Part shown: positions 3,816-28,093 of the stretch, piece after piece
Layout of the letters: the number at the start of each line of letters is the position of its first letter
How positions within the stretch are numbered: the first letter of the stretch is position 1
Source of the DNA: a virus
DNA: 37,001 nt
IMG/VR virus record: IMGVR_UViG_3300021357_000006
Coordinates: 1 to 37,001 of that record
Reading direction: 5' to 3' (one strand)
Translations under genes and position numbers: made by a program
Notes under the pieces: generated by a model
Seen by the model: the letters and a program-made list of their open reading frames with translations, nothing else
What the model was told of the DNA's origin: nothing
Database searches by the model: none

Positions 3816-4034
3816 TTATAGTCTCTCCTTTAGAAATACCGTACGAAGCATCCTTCTCCTTCTTTCCTTCAACTCCCGCCTTTTAGTCTCTTGTACAACA
3901 ATTCGTTGCGCCCTCTGTCTACTGACCCCCAGGATTTTTCCTATCTGTGTATAAGTTAATCCTGCCAGCCGTAGGGCAGTAGCATTAAATTTTCTATTGA
4001 TTGGTTTGGGTCCACAAAGTATTCTAAGAGTCAA
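3816..4034 (-). CDS. Helix-turn-helix protein, sigma-70 region 4-like
   Basis: The core reads ALRLAGLTYTQIGKILGVSR followed by QRAQRIV, a clear helix-turn-helix of the sigma-70 region 4 / LuxR-like type, and ends with a very basic tail (KRRELKERRRRMLR). The start is uncertain. The frame is open back to an ATG at 4145, but that would overlap the upstream gene by 122 bases; a TTG at 4034, just inside the end of that gene, is chosen and has only a weak GGAAG before it. It probably binds DNA, perhaps as a regulator of phage genes, and may be about 72 residues long. Confidence 0.6.
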   Translation of the reverse strand: MTLRILCGPKPINRKFNATALRLAGLTYTQIGKILGVSRQRAQRIVVQETKRRELKERRRRMLRTVFLKERL

Positions 4035-4270: not shown

Positions 4271-4624
4271 CTATGGCTCGAATATTTCTCCCGTTTCCAG
4301 GATACAAGCATTTGCGTTTTTATCGGCTCTATATTCCCATTGGAGCGTAATATTACCGTGTGCCTCTAAAATGCCCTCAATCCAGAGCTTGTCGCCCTCA
4401 TCACAGAGCTTGTGGCCTTCAATCCAGAGCCTATCGCCCTCATCCCGGAGCCTGTAGCCCTCATCCTGGAGCCTGTATCCCTCATCCTGGAGCTTGTAGC
4501 CATCGGCCCGGAGCCTGTAGCTCTCAGACAAAAGCTTATTGCCCTCGGCCCGGAGCTTTTCTCCTTCATCCCAGAGCCTAAGCCGTTTACTCCATATAAA
4601 GTGTAGGTCCATTGTACTTATCAT
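4271..4624 (-). CDS. Heptad-repeat protein 2 (10 units plus C-terminal domain)
   Basis: A 117-residue paralogue of the proteins at 2612-2986 and 6778-7224. After a 15-residue head come about ten units (LRAEGNK, LRADGYK, LQDEGYR twice, LRDEGDR, LWIEGHK and so on), then a non-repeated tail of about 33 residues with ITLQWEYRADKNANA and ending LETGEIFEP. The tail looks like a small beta module, as if the heptads were a stalk of variable length carrying a head. AGGAG stands six bases before the ATG. The underlying 21-base DNA repeats leave other frames open, but only this one has a ribosome binding site and a sensible protein. Confidence 0.83.
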   Translation of the reverse strand: MISTMDLHFIWSKRLRLWDEGEKLRAEGNKLLSESYRLRADGYKLQDEGYRLQDEGYRLRDEGDRLWIEGHKLCDEGDKLWIEGILEAHGNITLQWEYRADKNANACILETGEIFEP

Positions 4625-6777: not shown

Positions 6778-7224
6778 TTAGCTGGTCTCCTCAAACACCA
6801 ATCTCACGCCGTCCCAGGGCAAATCTGGAACAAGGACGCCATCGGCCCGGAGCTTGTCGCCCTCAGCCCAGAGCTTGTAGCCCTCCTCTAAGAGCTTGTA
6901 GCCCTTCTCTAAGAGCTTGTCGCCCTCAGCCCAGAGCTTGTCGCCCTCAGCCCTGAGCTTACTGCCCTTGGCCCGGAGCTTACTGCCATCGTCCCAGAGC
7001 TTACTGCCATCGTCCCAGAGCTTACTGCCCTCGGCCCGGAGCTTACTGCCCTCGGCCCGGAGCTTACCGCCATCGTCCCTGAGTATGTCGACCTCATCCC
7101 AGAGCTTACTAGCCTCAGCCCTGAGCTTGCGGCCCTCGGCCAAGAGCTCGTTGCCCTCAGCCCGGAGCTTACTACCCTCGGCCCGGAGCTTGCGGCCCTC
7201 ATCCGAGTATAAGTCCTCTGTCAT
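6778..7224 (-). CDS. Heptad-repeat protein 3 (17 units plus C-terminal tail)
   Basis: A 148-residue paralogue of the proteins at 2612-2986 and 4271-4624. After MTEDLYSDEGRK come 17 units (LRAEGSK, LWDDGSK, LRAKGSK, LWAEGDK, LLEEGYK and others), broken only by LRAEASK and LWDEVDI, and then a tail VLVPDLPWDGVRLVFEETS. The near-fixed Gly at position 5 and Leu at position 1 are as in the paralogues. AGGAGG lies six to seven bases before the ATG. Units 8-13 share 93 identical bases with heptad protein 1. Function unknown; a length-variable rod is the simplest structural reading. Confidence 0.85.
   Translation of the reverse strand: MTEDLYSDEGRKLRAEGSKLRAEGNELLAEGRKLRAEASKLWDEVDILRDDGGKLRAEGSKLRAEGSKLWDDGSKLWDDGSKLRAKGSKLRAEGDKLWAEGDKLLEKGYKLLEEGYKLWAEGDKLRADGVLVPDLPWDGVRLVFEETS
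6912..7004. repeat. 93-bp segment identical to 2698-2790
   Basis: Second copy of the perfect repeat shared with heptad-repeat gene 1, in the same orientation and frame. The rest of the two genes aligns only as degenerate 21-base units. Confidence 0.9.
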
Positions 7225-9598: not shown

Positions 9599-9832
9599 CT
9601 AGCGTTGTGCTCTCCCATTCCACTTACCATATTCCCGGTCCCAGACTGGCTGTGACTGGTCTTCCTCACTTAATGACTGCCATCCTAGACGATAACCATG
9701 CGCATAATATTTGTTGAGATATTTCGTCTGGTACTGACTAGCATGGGCCTTTGCCCATCGAGCGTCGTGGTATCCCCAGTTGAACTGTATTCTTGGGCTA
9801 TCTAGGTCCTTCTCTACCCGTGTTAGCTTCAT
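9599..9832 (-). CDS. Conserved small phage protein, 77 aa
   Basis: Contains RIQFNWGYHDARWAKAHASQ and YYAHGYRLGW, a pattern (FNWGYHDA ... Y..GY..G) known to me from small early phage proteins without assigned function. Promoter-proximal gene of the leftward unit: the promoter at 9873-9901 starts transcription about 30 bases before the ATG. A GGGAG-type site precedes the start. Confidence 0.72.
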   Translation of the reverse strand: MKLTRVEKDLDSPRIQFNWGYHDARWAKAHASQYQTKYLNKYYAHGYRLGWQSLSEEDQSQPVWDREYGKWNGRAQR

Positions 9833-9872: not shown

Positions 9873-9901
9873 AGGATACTCTCACTGGTGGGGCTTGTCA
9901 A
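9873..9901 (-). promoter_or_regulatory. Leftward promoter, sigma-70 type
   Basis: On the minus strand: TTGACA (9901-9896), 17-base spacer, TATCCT (9878-9873). The -35 box is perfect and the spacing is optimal; the -10 box matches TATAAT at four of six positions. It is placed directly before the first gene of the leftward unit. Confidence 0.8.
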
Positions 9902-10163
9902 TAGGTTTGTACCTGTTTTGCACGGCTTTTCTTTGTTTAGGTTAGGTGAGTCGGTCTGTATCAAGGTTTTTGGCAAATTTTTCCCTATAAAATCCCCTCA
10001 GAGGCCCTTTAGAAGCCCAAAATGACCCCTAAAAGCCAAAAGCCATAGTAAACTACCTTCAAGTCCAAAAATGGTTAAAATCGATTCTAAGGGCATTTAG
10101 AGGCGATTTTAGGATTTGGGGTTCTACTATAGGAATTCTGGTAGAACACCCGTCCGGGTCATA
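9902..10163. other. Gene-free control region, left part, with two small hairpins
   Basis: This is the first part of the 1.15 kb non-coding region between divergent units (9833-10988). It has A/T-rich sequence with irregular TTTAGA/CTAAAAGCC-like words and two perfect hairpins near its end: GTTCTAC (10121-10127) with GTAGAAC (10141-10147), and ACCCG (10148-10152) with CGGGT (10155-10159). No frame here has a ribosome binding site. Confidence 0.7.
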
Positions 10164-10251
10164 TTGACTTTTTTGTAATAGCACACAGCCAAATTGACAG
10201 ATTTGTAATAGCCTTGACTCTTTGGTAATAGTATTGACTTTTTTGTAATAG
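10164..10251 (+). repeat. Repeat array A: four copies of TTGAC-N6-GTAATAG
   Basis: Copies begin at 10164, 10194, 10214 and 10234, so the steps are 30, 20 and 20 bases. TTGAC and GTAATAG are exact in all four; the six bases between are T-rich. Copies 1 and 4 are identical over a longer stretch including a following GCAC. The even spacing of about two helix turns suggests a row of protein-binding sites on one face of the DNA. Confidence 0.9.
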
Positions 10252-10554
10252 CACGTATGTTCTGGCCTAGGTTGAATCAACACAGATGTTCTTTAGCACG
10301 GCAACACGGATGTTCTGGTGCATCTTCAGACAAATGTTCTTTAGAGCAGATGTTCTGTGGAACAGATGTTCTGGCCTCGGTGGAAGCTCTTCAGCACAGA
10401 TGTTCTCTTGAACGTATGTTCGGTAGAGCGGATGTTCTTCAGCACAAATGTTCTGGCCTTGTGCCCTGGTGGGGAAGCAGTAGAACTAATGTTCTTTAGG
10501 ACAGATGTTCTGGTAAGGCAGGATTAGCACGGGTGTTCTTTAGCACAAACGTTC
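10251..10554 (+). repeat. Repeat array B: 14 copies of a GMAC-RNAT-GTTC pseudopalindrome
   Basis: The ATGTTC cores (or one-base variants) begin at 10257, 10286, 10310, 10334, 10350, 10366, 10400, 10416, 10432, 10448, 10489, 10505, 10533 and 10549. Seven of the 13 steps are exactly 16 bases. The left half-site is usually GCAC, GAAC or GAGC; three copies are perfect GAAC-N4-GTTC palindromes (10360-10371, 10410-10421, 10483-10494). Between cores the sequence often reads TTTAGCAC. The pattern fits iterons or tandem operators. Confidence 0.92.
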
Positions 10555-10570: not shown

Positions 10571-10768
10571 ACTTCTTTAGATAGGATAATACTTTAGACG
10601 AGAAGAGGAAACTACTTTAGACGAGAGGAGACTACTATCGAGAACCAAGAGCAAACTTCTTTAGAGAAGATCAAACTATAAGCAAGAACTAAGAGGTAAC
10701 TAGCAGAGAGAAGAAACTACTTTAGATTAGGGAGAGGGGTAAGGCGAGAGAGAGGCGGAGGACTTTAG
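10571..10768 (+). repeat. Repeat array C: degenerate ACTaCTTTAGA units in a purine-rich tract
   Basis: CTTTAG occurs at 10575, 10592, 10615, 10659, 10720 and 10763, with degenerate members (CTATCG at 10635, CTATAAG at 10676, ACTAG near 10699) that keep a step of about 20-24 bases. The + strand is strongly enriched in A and G. The period of about two helix turns resembles arrays A and D. Confidence 0.7.
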
Positions 10769-10943: not shown

Positions 10944-10973
10944 TTGACATAATAACAAGATTATTGCTAAACT
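10944..10973 (+). promoter_or_regulatory. Rightward late promoter before terminase
   Basis: TTGACA (10944-10949), 18-base spacer, TAAACT (10968-10973). The -35 box is perfect; the -10 box is moderate. It shares the longer start AACTTGACATAA and the 18-base spacing with the promoter at 22050-22079. It lies about 15 bases before the terminase small-subunit ATG, so the leader is very short. Confidence 0.7.
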
Positions 10974-10988
10974 GAGAATAGAGGAATC

Positions 10989-11594
10989 ATGGCAAAATCA
11001 CGACCCAAGAGGCAACTATCCAAGACTTTAAGTTATAGTGGGTTGACAAAATATGAATCCTACATTGGGGATAATTTTCTACCTTTTGACCGTTTAGTTA
11101 CTGAGCTTACAACAAAATACTCGCTCGATGATAGTCAAGCAAAGTGGTTTTTGCACAGAGTTTATTTTAGAAGCGATATGGATTGCTCTGTTGCATTGGG
11201 CTTTGAGCAATCCGTTCATAGCAAATGGGTTAAAAGAAATACGAGCAGATTTGCTGAGGCTTATGAAGAGTATAGACAAAGGATGTACTCAATTGCATCT
11301 GAGTTTATGCGGGATTTATATGTGAAGGCGGTACAAAGGATTGGGGAGGCGTTAGATGCAACTAAAGTATACAATAAAGAAATAATCCCTGATTGGCAGA
11401 CAAGAATTAAAGCTGTTGAAATTGTTCTAACACATGAAAAGAAAGGCGGATATGCGGGGGTATTTGACCAAGTAGCGGCTGAATTTCAGAAGTTAGTTGC
11501 AGCTAAACGGAACGAGATTGAGGAAATTAGGGAGGCAACAAAAGGTAATGTAGATCCAAGTTTGTTTTTACTCGCTGAGAGAGCGCAGAAGTAA
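10989..11594 (+). CDS. terS: Terminase small subunit (putative)
   Basis: A 201-residue, mostly helical protein directly upstream of the large terminase subunit and overlapping it by one base, which is the usual place of the DNA-recognition subunit. Its first part is basic (MAKSRPKRQLSKT). The middle SLDDSQAKWFLHRVYFRSDM followed by DCSVALGFEQSVHSKWVKRN has the rhythm of a helix-turn-helix, and the C-terminal half is a long helix (FQKLVAAKRNEIEEIREATK). Small subunits assemble into rings that bind the packaging site; the repeat arrays 200-800 bases upstream are candidate binding sites. The assignment rests on position, size and helical content, not on a clear family match. GAGG lies four bases before the ATG. 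Confidence 0.75.
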   Translation: MAKSRPKRQLSKTLSYSGLTKYESYIGDNFLPFDRLVTELTTKYSLDDSQAKWFLHRVYFRSDMDCSVALGFEQSVHSKWVKRNTSRFAEAYEEYRQRMYSIASEFMRDLYVKAVQRIGEALDATKVYNKEIIPDWQTRIKAVEIVLTHEKKGGYAGVFDQVAAEFQKLVAAKRNEIEEIREATKGNVDPSLFLLAERAQK

Positions 11595-13027
11595 TGGCTG
11601 GGTTAAAACCTGATTATGATTTGCTAAAGTTTTGGCTTCAGAGGTCAAAAAGCTATATTATAACGGCTTACAACGAACCTATACACCAAAGATTATTGGA
11701 GGATAGGAAAAATCTTGAGGGTCCATGCCCTACTTTAGTTGTCCTCGCAGGCGGGGAGCAAAGTGGTAAGAGTACCTCTGGTGGAGAGCACGTTTATGCT
11801 GATGCTGCCTGTGCGGGGTTTATAGGTGTTAATGATCCTATTTATTGGATTGTTGGCGAAAGGTATCAAGATTGCAGGAAGGAGTTTCAGTATTTGATTG
11901 ATGAGGCCCTACAAAATGGATTTTTAACCGATGTTGATATTTCCTTTCCACAAGAAGGGCCTTGCAAGGCGGTTTTTTCCAAATTTCCTAATAAACCGAC
12001 GATAAAAACACTATCTTCTTCTGATTTTACTACTCTGGCCTCGGAAGCTCCGACTGGTATTTTAATGGTTGAGGCTGGTCGTCAGTCCTATCAATCTTTT
12101 AGAACTTTGTGGACACGAGCACATCATAAATTAGCTTGGTTTTTGGTCTCTGGGACTTTCGAAATGACCAAAGGAAGGTATTTTCCCGATTTATGGAAGG
12201 TTTGCCAGGGGGAGAATGAGTATTCTGGGGTTAGTTTATCTCTTCCGACCTATGCGAATCCGAAATTGTATGAATATGGGCCAGATGATCCTAAAGTTAA
12301 GGCAGCAAGGGCAACTTTAACTGAGGAGGAATTTGCAGAGAGGTTTTTAGGACAACCTAGACCTTCCATTGGAGTTGTTTTCCAAGAATTTAGGAGATCA
12401 ACCCATGTAAAGTTAGGGGCAGAGTATGATCCAGGGTTTCCAGTTAGACTTTGGGTTGATCCAGGATGGTATCCAGGTAGTTATTCGGTCTTATGGGTCC
12501 AAATAATAGGACAACAGATTAGGGTTTTTGATGAGGTTTATGAGAATTATTTTACAAATGAAGATATTTTAGACCTTGTTAGAAATCACCCTAGGTTTGT
12601 AAATATTGAGAGGGTTGTTATAGATGTAGCAGCAGAGACTCATGCGGGGGCTTCTACACCTGCTGTTACGGCCTGGCGTAAAGTGTTTTCCCTACACAAT
12701 ATCCCTGTAGTTAGTAGATATGTAAAGATTCAGCATGGTCTGACGAGAACCCATGATAAGCTTAGGGTTAATCCTATAGAAAAAGTACCGTATTTAATTT
12801 TTCATCCCCGGTGTGAGAATACCATTTGGGAGTTTGAAGAGGGGTATAAGTATAATGTGAGATCGAGTAGTTTTGATATACGATCAGGAAAACCGCAGGA
12901 TAGGAATAATCACTCAGCTAAGGCTGTTGCTTATGGCCTAGTGGACGCTTTTGGGTTTAATGAAGGGCCAAGGGTTCCCCTTCCACAGTCTTATAGGAGG
13001 CAAATGGCTTATGATAGGGTTAGATAG
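11594..13027 (+). CDS. terL: Terminase large subunit (packaging ATPase/nuclease)
   Basis: A 477-residue protein. The P-loop is GGEQSGKST at residues 53-61. The Walker B strand is GILMVEAG with Glu160 as probable catalytic base; the usual DE is replaced by VE. The coupling motif SGTF follows at 186-189. The C-terminal RNase H-like nuclease is marked by RLWVDPGW (Asp289), VVIDVAA (Asp344) and the late HSAKAVAYGLVDAFG (Asp451). The enzyme pumps DNA into the prohead and cuts it. It starts at the stop of the small subunit (one-base overlap), and its own stop overlaps the GTG of the next gene (TAGTG). Confidence 0.95.
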   Translation: MAGLKPDYDLLKFWLQRSKSYIITAYNEPIHQRLLEDRKNLEGPCPTLVVLAGGEQSGKSTSGGEHVYADAACAGFIGVNDPIYWIVGERYQDCRKEFQYLIDEALQNGFLTDVDISFPQEGPCKAVFSKFPNKPTIKTLSSSDFTTLASEAPTGILMVEAGRQSYQSFRTLWTRAHHKLAWFLVSGTFEMTKGRYFPDLWKVCQGENEYSGVSLSLPTYANPKLYEYGPDDPKVKAARATLTEEEFAERFLGQPRPSIGVVFQEFRRSTHVKLGAEYDPGFPVRLWVDPGWYPGSYSVLWVQIIGQQIRVFDEVYENYFTNEDILDLVRNHPRFVNIERVVIDVAAETHAGASTPAVTAWRKVFSLHNIPVVSRYVKIQHGLTRTHDKLRVNPIEKVPYLIFHPRCENTIWEFEEGYKYNVRSSSFDIRSGKPQDRNNHSAKAVAYGLVDAFGFNEGPRVPLPQSYRRQMAYDRVR

Positions 13028-24213: not shown

Positions 24214-25020
24214 GTGAAGATTCTACTAGGACTATATACTGGGGATGTTGTTCTGGAAAGTGCGCTTGCAAATGTTTTGAGTTTGCAGGCTTCCATGATT
24301 TCCAGAGGGATACAAGACCCTGTGTCTAGTTATATTCAGAGAACATCCTGTAGAGTAGATGCTAATAGAAACTATATAATGCATTATTTCCTTAACAAAA
24401 GCACGGCGGATTATTTGTTCATAATAGACCAGGATGTTAGCCATCCCGCCGATGCTCCTTATGTACTCGCCTCCCGTGATAAGCCGATCGTTTGTGGTTT
24501 ATATTTTAAGCGAAATGAGGCTGGGATCCACCATCCGATGTTTTATAAGAATATCGGGAATGGTGTAGAGGATCGCCAAGGGTATAAAATTGGAGAATTC
24601 TGTGAGGATAACTACTCACCAAATCCTTTTATACCTATTGTAGCCGAGTTTTTATCTAATTCTAAAGCTCCTCTTATTGATGATCCTTTCCTACTGGCTA
24701 AAGAGGACGGAAGTCTACCAATGACTGGAGGGATTATAGAAATAGACGCCTCTGGATTTGGATGTGTGATGATCCGCCGAGATGTGATCGAGGCAATGAG
24801 TCCTCCTTATTTAATTGATGAGCCGCATTTGAACGGCGATTTAGTTTTTTACAGAAATGCCAAGAAGTTAGGTTTCGACATCTGGGGAGATATGTCAGTC
24901 GTTTGTAGCCATAGGCAGGTAAAACCTATAGGTCTTAAAGGATTTCAGGATTTTGTGTGGAAGGAGGTTAACGATTACAATGCCTCACGATCACAAGAAA
25001 TTCATACAGAGATTTACTAA
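24214..25020 (+). CDS. Glycosyltransferase, GT-A type (GT2-like)
   Basis: A 268-residue protein with a GT-A pattern: MKILLGLYTGDVVLESALAN at the start, ADYLFIIDQDVSHP at about 65-78 where DQD is the metal/nucleotide-binding DxD motif, then PIVCGLYFKR. ASGFGCVMIRRDVIEAM and DLVFYRNAKKLGFDIW mark the acceptor side, as in phage and bacterial GT2-like proteins. GTG start, with TGGAGG upstream. It transfers a sugar from a nucleotide donor; the acceptor may be virion protein or a cell-surface glycan. First gene of a sugar-modification cassette reaching 28093. Confidence 0.82.
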   Translation: MKILLGLYTGDVVLESALANVLSLQASMISRGIQDPVSSYIQRTSCRVDANRNYIMHYFLNKSTADYLFIIDQDVSHPADAPYVLASRDKPIVCGLYFKRNEAGIHHPMFYKNIGNGVEDRQGYKIGEFCEDNYSPNPFIPIVAEFLSNSKAPLIDDPFLLAKEDGSLPMTGGIIEIDASGFGCVMIRRDVIEAMSPPYLIDEPHLNGDLVFYRNAKKLGFDIWGDMSVVCSHRQVKPIGLKGFQDFVWKEVNDYNASRSQEIHTEIY

Positions 25021-25795
25021 AGAGGATTTACTAGACTTAGAGTACACTTACGGCGGAGAAATACGGCTTCAGATCAATCACGGAGACGGGACAACCGAGT
25101 TAGTTTTACTAAATAACTTATTGGGGATAATAAGCAGATTTTCCTCAGATGCTTTGGGAAATAAGCATGGAGGCTATATGATAATCCCCAAGAAAATCTG
25201 GACACAGCTTCGGGAAGAAGCTTCAGATAGATTGGGGAGAGAAAAATTTAGGCAAACGAAAGATAAAGGTTTTGTGGGTATTTTTTCAAACTGGACTGTT
25301 TACCTTGCAGATGTTGTTCAGGTTTTTGTACGTACTGACCACAACGGCCTTTGTTGGGCTTTTGATATTGGTAGTATTCATAACCTACTCCGCCGCCCTG
25401 AAATTCTACAGCTAGTAGGAGAAGGAATGGGTTTTGATGATAAGTTTGTATTTCATCCACTTCTAGGTGGCTATGCTCCGCCCCTGGTCTTACGGGCCTG
25501 GGCCGATGATGGGTACAAACCAGCCCTGGATGCCCTTGAGATTCTACAAATTCCTGAAAAGGCTTGTGATTTAGCAAAGGGTATTGGAGTACACCCTGAC
25601 TGGTTGGCTGAACACGCAAATAATGGTTATGAACCCGCAATTTCACTACTGATAAACCCACCTGATATTGCTGATAGAAATTGGAGGATTCGTGCTCAAG
25701 AGATATTATTCCAATTAGTTAATGGTGATAAACTAGGACTTCTTCCCGAAGGGGTAGTTGAAGGAGAGTATAGTGAAGTTTCTAGTAGGCTATGA
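24980..25795 (+). CDS. Hypothetical protein of the glycosylation cassette, 271 aa
   Basis: The start is taken at ATG 24980 (MPHDHKKFIQRFTKEDLLDL); the AAGGAGG upstream is 12 bases away, and the gene overlaps the glycosyltransferase end by 41 bases. The C-terminal half contains GGYAPPLVLRAWADDGYKPA and WLAEHANNGYEPAISLLINP, a loose internal repeat (LxxWADDGYKPALDAL / LAEHANNGYEPAISLL) that looks like helical repeats. The N-terminal half (GGEIRLQINHGDGTTELVLL) is beta-rich. No family recognised. Its place between three transferases suggests a role in the same modification. Confidence 0.65.
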   Translation: MPHDHKKFIQRFTKEDLLDLEYTYGGEIRLQINHGDGTTELVLLNNLLGIISRFSSDALGNKHGGYMIIPKKIWTQLREEASDRLGREKFRQTKDKGFVGIFSNWTVYLADVVQVFVRTDHNGLCWAFDIGSIHNLLRRPEILQLVGEGMGFDDKFVFHPLLGGYAPPLVLRAWADDGYKPALDALEILQIPEKACDLAKGIGVHPDWLAEHANNGYEPAISLLINPPDIADRNWRIRAQEILFQLVNGDKLGLLPEGVVEGEYSEVSSRL

Positions 25796-26657
25796 CCACC
25801 ACCCTGTCTCAGTTGCTCGTATGTATGTTAGAGCAATGAGAAGATTGGGGATTGAAGTGCTTACTATTGGCCCCAGGTGGAAGGGTAGATATTCTCATCC
25901 TGAATACGACGATATTCCTGATATTGAGATTCCAAGAGGCTCACCTGTTTGGCGGACAAATTTTCTTACAGATGTTTCCCAAGTAGATCAGGTATGGAGT
26001 TTTGATAATAAATTTCGACTCAGAGGGAAGCTTGGAGATGGGCCCGCAGTGATATACTGCACAGACCCCCATGTAGTTGATGCAAAGTTTTACTTACGAG
26101 AATATGATTACAAATTCTCGGCACAGAAAATACCTGGGACATCTTGGATCCCACTTGCCTACGACTCCGATCTACACCCTTGTTTTAATAATATAAATAA
26201 TCTAAGTCGGCCAATAGATGTATGTTTTATTGGGATGACGGGGGCAGGGTATGAGAACCGCCGTGCAGGGCTGAAATGTTTAGATAATCTGGGACTAGAG
26301 AGTTTTATAGCATCGGGGCTAGTTTTTGACGATTATTCCCGTCCATATAATAAATCAAAAATTGCCTATAATTGGTCTAGTTCTTTTGATATACCAATGA
26401 GGCTTTTTGAAGGAATGGCAATGGGGTGTTGTGTAGTAACTAATAGAATCCCATTTTTAGATGAATTGGGTTTTGTTGAGGGCACACACTATCTGGGGTT
26501 TTCAAATATCGGTGAACTAGAAAAAGTAGTCCTAGAGGCTTTGAATAGTGGTCGTTGGCAAGAGGTGGCTAAAAAGGGTAATCTTGCCGTCCAAGAGCAC
26601 TCCTATCCTAATAGAGTCATAAAAATGCTCGAAAGGATTGACTACAAAAAAATTTAA
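25773..26657 (+). CDS. Glycosyltransferase, GT-B type (CgeB/Glyco_trans_1_2-like)
   Basis: The start is GTG at 25773 (MKFLVGYDHHPVSVARMYVR), with AAGGAG six bases upstream; an earlier TTG at 25758 would lie before the site. The 294-residue protein has IDVCFIGMTGAGYENRRAGL and the C-terminal donor-binding pattern YNWSSSFDIPMRLFEGMAMG followed by CCVVTNRIPFLDELGF. These match the CgeB/Glyco_trans_1_2 group of GT-B enzymes. It overlaps the previous gene by 23 bases. The sugar and acceptor are unknown. Confidence 0.83.
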   Translation: MKFLVGYDHHPVSVARMYVRAMRRLGIEVLTIGPRWKGRYSHPEYDDIPDIEIPRGSPVWRTNFLTDVSQVDQVWSFDNKFRLRGKLGDGPAVIYCTDPHVVDAKFYLREYDYKFSAQKIPGTSWIPLAYDSDLHPCFNNINNLSRPIDVCFIGMTGAGYENRRAGLKCLDNLGLESFIASGLVFDDYSRPYNKSKIAYNWSSSFDIPMRLFEGMAMGCCVVTNRIPFLDELGFVEGTHYLGFSNIGELEKVVLEALNSGRWQEVAKKGNLAVQEHSYPNRVIKMLERIDYKKI

Positions 26658-26674
26658 TCAACTATGGAGGCAAT

Positions 26675-28093
26675 ATGAAAGTAAATATAGTTGAGATGTA
26701 TCATTCAGAGGCCATGCTAAGGATAGTTCGCCCCCTAGTGGAATATAGGCCAGGATGGGTTGATTTAACCATTAGCGAAATCCCCGATCCTGATGCAGAT
26801 GTTAATATACACATTCCTTGGCATATTCTCGTGGATTCTCCTAAGAATAATCTCGATATTATACTATTCACCCATGTAAACCCAGGAGTGGAGGGAAAAT
26901 TGAAATTAGCAGCAGCAAAAGCTGATCATATTTTTGCTATGTCAAAGCACGGTATTCATACCCTTCGTCAGAATGGGATTCAAAATTCAGTTAGTATAAT
27001 CACTCCAGATGTAGAGGGATATATCCCCAGGAAGATAAAAGTGGGGATAGTTGGGACGGAGCAACCCAATGGCCGTAAACGCTCTTGGTTGCTTGCTGAG
27101 CTTGCCTGGAACTATAATCTTGATCCCTTTCATTTTGTAATACTTGGGAAAAACTGGGACGGTGTAATTCCTTATGTCTCAAATTTAGGTGTTAGCGTAG
27201 AAAATATTAAATCAGTAGACTCAAATTATAACTTCTATCATGGCATTGACCTATTGCTATGCACGGGATTTGTTGAAGGTGGTCCTCTGCCACTAATTGA
27301 AGCTCTTGCTTGTGGTGTTCCTGTGTTATCCCCACCGTATGGCTACGCACTAGACTATCTTCCTCCAGAGAGTATTTATAACTCGATTGAGGAGCTATCC
27401 ATGTGTTTGAAAGAATTTGTTTCTCCAGTTATGGAGCGGAGAAATCGAGTACAGCATTTAACCAAACAAGTTTATGCAGGGCAAGTTTACGAAGTATTGC
27501 GTAATATTTGTAAAAATGCAATAGTTTGCCGATATGATAACATTCCTGCAATTATACGAGAAATTAAAGCAACAAAATTACTAGAAGTTGGTACTGGCAC
27601 TTGTGAACGTGCTGAAGTGATGATTACGGCTGCGCTGGAAAATGGTACTGATATTATTTACAGGGGTTACGATTATTTTCGTCCACTCAGCCCTTTTGAA
27701 ATAACCTCAGAGTTCTCGAAACAGCCTATGAGTATTGGTGAAGCTGCTAAGAGATTATTACCCTATGATGCTGAGGTTATCTTAGTTGAGGGGGATACTA
27801 AAGAGACAATTCCCAATACTCCCGACACAAATACTTATGATTTTATTTATATAGATGGCGGCCATTCCTGGGAGACTATCGAATCCGATTGGGAAAACCT
27901 TCAAAGATTAGCTCACGATAACACTGTGTTTGTGCTTGATGATTACTACCCAGAGATTGACCGTCCAGTTGGGTGTCAAAAATTAGTCGATTCCCTTGAT
28001 CGCAACATCTGGTCAGTAGAATTTCTCGAACCTCTCGAAACTTGGGGAGAGTTGAAAATCCAAATGGTTAGGGTCCAAAAATGCCTTATATAA
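26675..28093 (+). CDS. Bifunctional glycosyltransferase (GT4-like) - methyltransferase
   Basis: A 472-residue fusion. Residues about 1-270 are a compact GT-B transferase: ITPDVEGYIPRKIKVGIVG, then GFVEGGPLPLIEALACGVPV with the family's EGGPLPLIEA donor motif. Residues about 290-472 are a class I methyltransferase: KLLEVGTGTCERAEVMITAA (motif I), VILVEGDTKETIP, and YDFIYIDGGHSWETIESDWE, as in Methyltransf_24-type sugar or small-molecule methylases. The enzyme may add a sugar and then methylate it. TGGAGG stands before the ATG. The fusion is in frame without a break. Confidence 0.85.
   Translation: MKVNIVEMYHSEAMLRIVRPLVEYRPGWVDLTISEIPDPDADVNIHIPWHILVDSPKNNLDIILFTHVNPGVEGKLKLAAAKADHIFAMSKHGIHTLRQNGIQNSVSIITPDVEGYIPRKIKVGIVGTEQPNGRKRSWLLAELAWNYNLDPFHFVILGKNWDGVIPYVSNLGVSVENIKSVDSNYNFYHGIDLLLCTGFVEGGPLPLIEALACGVPVLSPPYGYALDYLPPESIYNSIEELSMCLKEFVSPVMERRNRVQHLTKQVYAGQVYEVLRNICKNAIVCRYDNIPAIIREIKATKLLEVGTGTCERAEVMITAALENGTDIIYRGYDYFRPLSPFEITSEFSKQPMSIGEAAKRLLPYDAEVILVEGDTKETIPNTPDTNTYDFIYIDGGHSWETIESDWENLQRLAHDNTVFVLDDYYPEIDRPVGCQKLVDSLDRNIWSVEFLEPLETWGELKIQMVRVQKCLI

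Follow-up and report, generated by a model that had tools for sequence, protein, structure and literature searches.

The window analyzed here, i.e., the whole 37,001-base IMG/VR record IMGVR_UViG_3300021357_000006 of an uncultured phage (classed linear), raises the question of which protein reads a dense series of pseudopalindromic sites in front of a terminase operon, and what such a series would do for the phage. An earlier note on this DNA had reported 14 sites in 304 bases (10251-10554, + strand), with seven of the 13 steps between them measuring 16 bases. Coordinates, site number and steps were all recomputed and are correct, the successive sites being 29, 24, 24, 16, 16, 34, 16, 16, 16, 41, 16, 28 and 16 bases apart, and the three perfect GAAC-N4-GTTC palindromes were found again at 10360, 10410 and 10483. 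The core that the note had quoted, GMACRNATGTTC, needs loosening, with five of the 14 sites matching it exactly, eight carrying one mismatch and one carrying two. The right half (GTTC) is invariant in all 14 sites; the left half varies (GCAC, GAAC, GAGC, GGAC, ACAC or AGAC), the GCAC type being predominant. When the sites were aligned, conservation extended beyond the quoted core to T/C-A-G before it and T after it, giving a 16-bp unit, TAGMAC-RNAT-GTTCTR, that has the same orientation throughout and forms runs of abutting units. As the box is itself 16 bp long, the 16-base beat reflects boxes set end to end, and diverged spacer copies are found where the steps differ from 16 (24, 28, 29, 34 and 41 bases). 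The array is real: sites with at most one mismatch to GMACRNATGTTC number 13 on the + strand of the whole window, all inside the 304 bases, and the maximum per 304 b under an order-2 Markov null was one (window composition) or two (composition of the local kilobase). A 15th, weak and degenerate box lies at 10143-10156 in the opposite orientation (- strand), reading TAGAACACCCGTCC on the + strand.

The array occupies a divergent intergenic region of 1156 b between the first ORF of the leftward arm (9599-9832, - strand) and a putative terminase small subunit gene (terS; 10989-11594, + strand, 201 aa), which overlaps by one base the start of the terminase large subunit gene (terL; 11594-13027, + strand), whose product matches PHROG terminases. 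The distance from the array is 435 b to the putative terS and 1039 b to terL. TerS was assigned by position and weak similarity: no family match was obtained, a profile of the relatives' TerS also missed it, the best similarity to a relative's TerS had E=0.009, and a single-sequence structure model was all-helical, its confidence (pLDDT 51) being too low to support a fold search. Five promoter-like sites were counted in the region, compared with 2.7 by chance. The two best are consensus matches only, TTGACA-17-TATCCT (9873-9901, - strand; ~40 b ahead of the leftward operon's first gene) and TTGACA-18-TAAACT with an extended -10 (10944-10973, + strand; 16 b before the putative terS start), and lie ~350-390 b from the array, which leaves the controlled promoter uncertain. 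Overlap with box 1 was seen only for a weak site (TTGACT-16-TATGTT, 10234-10261, + strand; 9/12), which has its second hexamer inside the box.

Two further kinds of tandem repeat flank the array on the + strand, namely four copies of TATTGACTTTTTTGTAATAGCAC (10162-10254), of which the last three follow at 20-base steps and the last overlaps box 1, and, downstream, a purine-rich tract with five copies of AGAGGAAACTACTTTAGA (10581-10726). Tandem matches of the former, a TTGAC repeat, were found nowhere else in IMG/VR. Three kinds of tandem repeat in one intergenic region, together with a cumulative GC skew minimum near 10 kb, could be read as an iteron-type replication origin or a partition site, as the earlier note had considered. 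However, the skew turns where the coding strand switches and thus says little about an origin, a scan of ten left-arm and terminase proteins recognized no replication initiator (in a record that may be incomplete), and the intergenic region has no DnaA box. Typical iterons are in helical phase; the 16-bp step of the array is out of phase. Iteron origins such as lambda ori resemble the array in having multiple direct repeats in a control region, but the array differs in this out-of-phase step, in palindromic units of a host-repressor type and in the lack of a recognized initiator gene. An origin or partition site is therefore without support from any specific feature and appears very unlikely.

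In Gram-positive bacteria the LexA motif is GAAC-N4-GTTC (PMC3323433), and with three boxes perfect and most others one base off, the array has the palindrome of a LexA operator. A search of 84,980 species genomes for the TerL family returned three contigs, all Chloroflexota MAGs (one labeled Dehalococcoidia), so that the host probably belongs to the Chloroflexota, an assignment resting on TerLs that are 30-32% identical. Within the class containing a TerL-bearing MAG, regions up to 300 b upstream of lexA and recA were searched for boxes with at most one mismatch. A box was found at 21 of 36 lexA loci vs 0 of 36 in the control (Fisher p=1e-8), the other 15 lexA loci having none, and at six of 30 recA loci vs one of 30, a difference that is not significant (p=0.10). 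In two recA promoters the boxes are TAGAACAAATGTGCTA and CAGAACAGATGTGCTA, which read on the opposite strand as the GCAC-type box of the array. The earlier note's equation of the core with the Gram-positive LexA box was thus upheld in the presumed host group, where the same box, GCAC variant included, occurs in lexA and some recA promoters. These operators resemble the array in the GAAC-N4-GTTC sequence and A/T flanks, but number one to three per lexA or recA locus examined, compared with 14 plus one weak box in the window. That tandem boxes might be widespread in host genomes was considered and rejected (2/393).

Neither exact 8-mer patterns from the TerL and putative major capsid protein sequences nor a comparison of DNA and portal protein with 50,697 phage records brought up a close relative of the window phage. 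A first IMG/VR pattern (two sites 16 bases apart) matched 33 loci, most of them by chance, and the view that all were chance matches proved wrong, as about a dozen carry additional boxes in intergenic DNA (e.g., TAGCACATATGTTCTA). A stricter tandem pattern, GNACNNNNGTTCTNNAGNACNNNNGTTCT, was scanned against 2.9 million IMG/VR viral contigs with the reversed pattern as control. Abutting tandem boxes were present at 32 loci vs seven for the reversed pattern, six of those seven being in coding DNA, and the 32 loci are mostly intergenic clusters of two to eight boxes. Conservation in relatives had been set beforehand as the point on which a functional reading could fail, and tandem 16-bp boxes do recur upstream of terminases in many phage lineages. 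The remark that 14 boxes are far more than a promoter needs also stands against these smaller clusters.

With an iterated TerL profile, a terminase was recognized downstream of the cluster in most of the 32 loci. For about ten TerL lineages, the window plus some nine others, no more than 2.8 kb separates TerL from a cluster upstream of it, the distances running from 70 to 2744 b: 70 b in L158, about 0.5 kb in L163/L165, 575 b in L178, 814 b in L187, 872 b in L204, 985 b in L161/L192, 999 b in L188, 1039 b in the window, about 1055 b in L162/L172/L177, 1290 b in L203, 1991 b in L168, 2047 b in L087, 2279 b in L026 and 2744 b in L020. A few further loci have the cluster 3.5-4.8 kb upstream, and in L159/L190 TerL is far off on the contig. 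The cluster is on the upstream side of TerL in every locus with both within 5 kb. The association (p=3e-7; 10 of 20 lineages at an assumed 7% each) is indicative only, because the profile was trained partly on these box loci and the fetched stretches were centered on the boxes. A gap of 17-70 b separates the boxes from the first terminase-operon gene in L158, L163/L165 and L187. Boxes ending shortly before a gene are in the usual position of an operator. Recurrent arrays in the same place in many unrelated phages suggest that late genes are timed with host LexA.

A steady position upstream of terS/terL in about ten lineages would also be expected of a packaging (pac/cos) site bound by the putative TerS encoded 435 b downstream, another function proposed in the earlier note. 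A site required by TerS should follow TerS, and the box does not, which disfavors this reading. The motif is independent of TerS type and adjoins unrelated TerS and TerL proteins. In L026, one of the loci from the first pattern that carry additional boxes, TerS and TerL follow three boxes, and the TerL is ~32% identical to that of the window. When an alignment of the window and L026 TerLs was used as query, 392 IMG/VR relatives were obtained and 80 kept. One TerS family is common to 77 TerL relatives, yet among the 66 with at least 1 kb upstream a plausible box within 2.5 kb upstream occurred in just two, L060 (CAGAACGGATGTTCGG) and L087, a frequency no higher than the chance level seen downstream; the array is thus not conserved with its cognate TerS/TerL family and is missing from nearly all relatives that keep the TerS. 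Moreover, L028 has tandem boxes upstream of an early operon encoding a Sak4-like protein and an exonuclease, and identity with the host LexA box would be a coincidence. Taken together, a packaging function is highly improbable. A noncoding element, TACCCGTGACAGAATTTTTCCCTTAAAA, was considered as an alternative packaging site upstream of TerL and set aside, with strict matches in only three of 83 relatives. A shared noncoding element near TACCCGTGACAGAATTTTTCCCTTAAAA lies ~0.95 kb upstream of TerL in some relatives (L096, L109, L118, L087 and L162/L177), and the window (9976-9996) and L028 have CCTATAAAATCCCCT in common.

The boxes might instead be operators for a phage-encoded repressor or activator, e.g., the HTH (3816-4034) or RHH (914-1486) protein of the window. 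The boxes of L159 have an HTH_3 repressor gene beside them, and the late promoter of the Bacillus tectivirus GIL01 contains a palindrome specific to gp6, a truncated LexA homolog that binds there (PMC6182141). The sites also have a polarity: the degenerate half lies away from terS in 11 boxes of the window and toward it in none, and away from the terminase in nine of 11 informative arrays across loci. A symmetric LexA dimer does not need such polarity, which counts against LexA as the ligand, and a phage repressor could use a site of this kind, given the gene beside the L159 boxes. Conversely, the same 16-bp box occurs beside unrelated terminases and in front of host SOS genes (lexA, recA), which a host factor fits better than a phage factor, and no regulator common to the array-bearing phages was found. 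The LexA DNA-binding domain (PF01726) was absent from all 33 array-bearing records, including the window (these records may be fragments), and from 30 TerL-relative records, two of which are in common with the array-bearing set. As none of the 33 encodes this domain, host LexA is the likely ligand of the arrays, and operators for a phage regulator are an unlikely reading.

Overall, LexA is the best supported of the options raised by the earlier note, and we favor, with a probability of roughly 0.6, a reading in which the array is a set of LexA operators in a divergent control region that gates phage genes by the SOS response. On one side of this control region are the leftward genes, presumably early ones, and on the other is the rightward terminase and structural operon. 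Spaced by 16 bp (about 1.5 turns), neighboring dimers of host LexA would sit on opposite faces of the DNA and coat ~300 bp of it, keeping lytic and above all late transcription low until RecA-driven cleavage of LexA, brought about by DNA damage or by phage replication, released the repression. The controlled promoter could be one at box 1, where LexA would form a roadblock, or control could act at a distance.

LexA control of phage late genes is, to our knowledge, known in detail from one small tectivirus, GIL01. There, host LexA, together with gp7, represses the late promoter P3 through tandem LexA boxes, and gp6 subsequently activates P3 (PMC6182141); P1 has one good and one poor LexA box (PMC4551915). 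The window phage resembles GIL01 in having late genes behind tandem boxes of the GAAC-N4-GTTC class, one of them a poor match, and LexA boxes of this type stand upstream of terS/terL in the other lineages as well; host LexA represses in GIL01 and is the proposed repressor here. In contrast, GIL01 has two or three boxes per promoter and the help of gp7 and gp6, whereas the window has 14 boxes before a tailed-phage terminase, is known from sequence alone, and shares with the other array-bearing records the lack of a recognized gp6-like LexA domain.

The number of boxes may reflect stronger repression, a spread of tandem duplications, or titration of LexA. Under the last of these, which the earlier note had raised as a decoy, the extra boxes would act mainly as a sponge for LexA and a copy-number timer: replicating phage genomes with 14 boxes each would exhaust the LexA pool and free the late promoter and host SOS genes without DNA damage. 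The array is about twice the size of the next largest cluster (eight boxes) and is not centered on a clear promoter; furthermore, the records have no phage LexA, and a tyrosine integrase was unrecognized in most of those bearing arrays. However, two to eight boxes suffice in other phages, several of them right at the start of a gene like ordinary operators, and we regard titration as the main role of the extra boxes as improbable. A broader proposal, that rows of host LexA boxes were set at the terminase operon repeatedly by phages of uncultured, probably Chloroflexota, hosts, and that the window's array is a LexA-titrating copy-number timer working with or without DNA damage, is similarly improbable. 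No integrase was recognized in the window phage, which is therefore not evidently temperate, a point against the SOS-gating reading.

Should LexA bind these arrays, the same strategy would recur in tailed phages whose terminases are unrelated and most of which lack a recognized integrase. Virion production in unculturable bacteria would then be tied to the SOS state of the host, and 16-bp boxes abutting one another ahead of terS would provide a searchable signature. The 14-box array would also be a natural test of whether box number sets the strength of repression or titrates the repressor.

Several minor observations were made alongside. L183 (13507-14034), L123 (1408-1734) and L122, of which L123 is contig C200 of a TerL-bearing Chloroflexota MAG, encode proteins that have a LexA DNA-binding domain but not the length for a peptidase domain, on what appears to be a mobile element; in L122 and L123 a GCAC-type LexA box lies ~120 b upstream of the short gene. 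The layout resembles that of GIL01 gp6. Two LexA-domain frames of a Chloroflexota MAG contig were considered as analogs of phage gp6 and rejected, the contig having the look of a mobile element and not of a phage (ORFs judged by eye). In the left arm, three ORFs on the - strand (2612-2986, 4271-4624 and 6778-7224) encode heptad repeats, e.g., LRAEGDKLWAEG, with a 21-base period in the DNA, and long open frames are also present on the opposite strand. Glycosyltransferase-like genes occupy 24214-28093 in the structural arm, where 24214-25020 matches PHROG glycosyltransferases.
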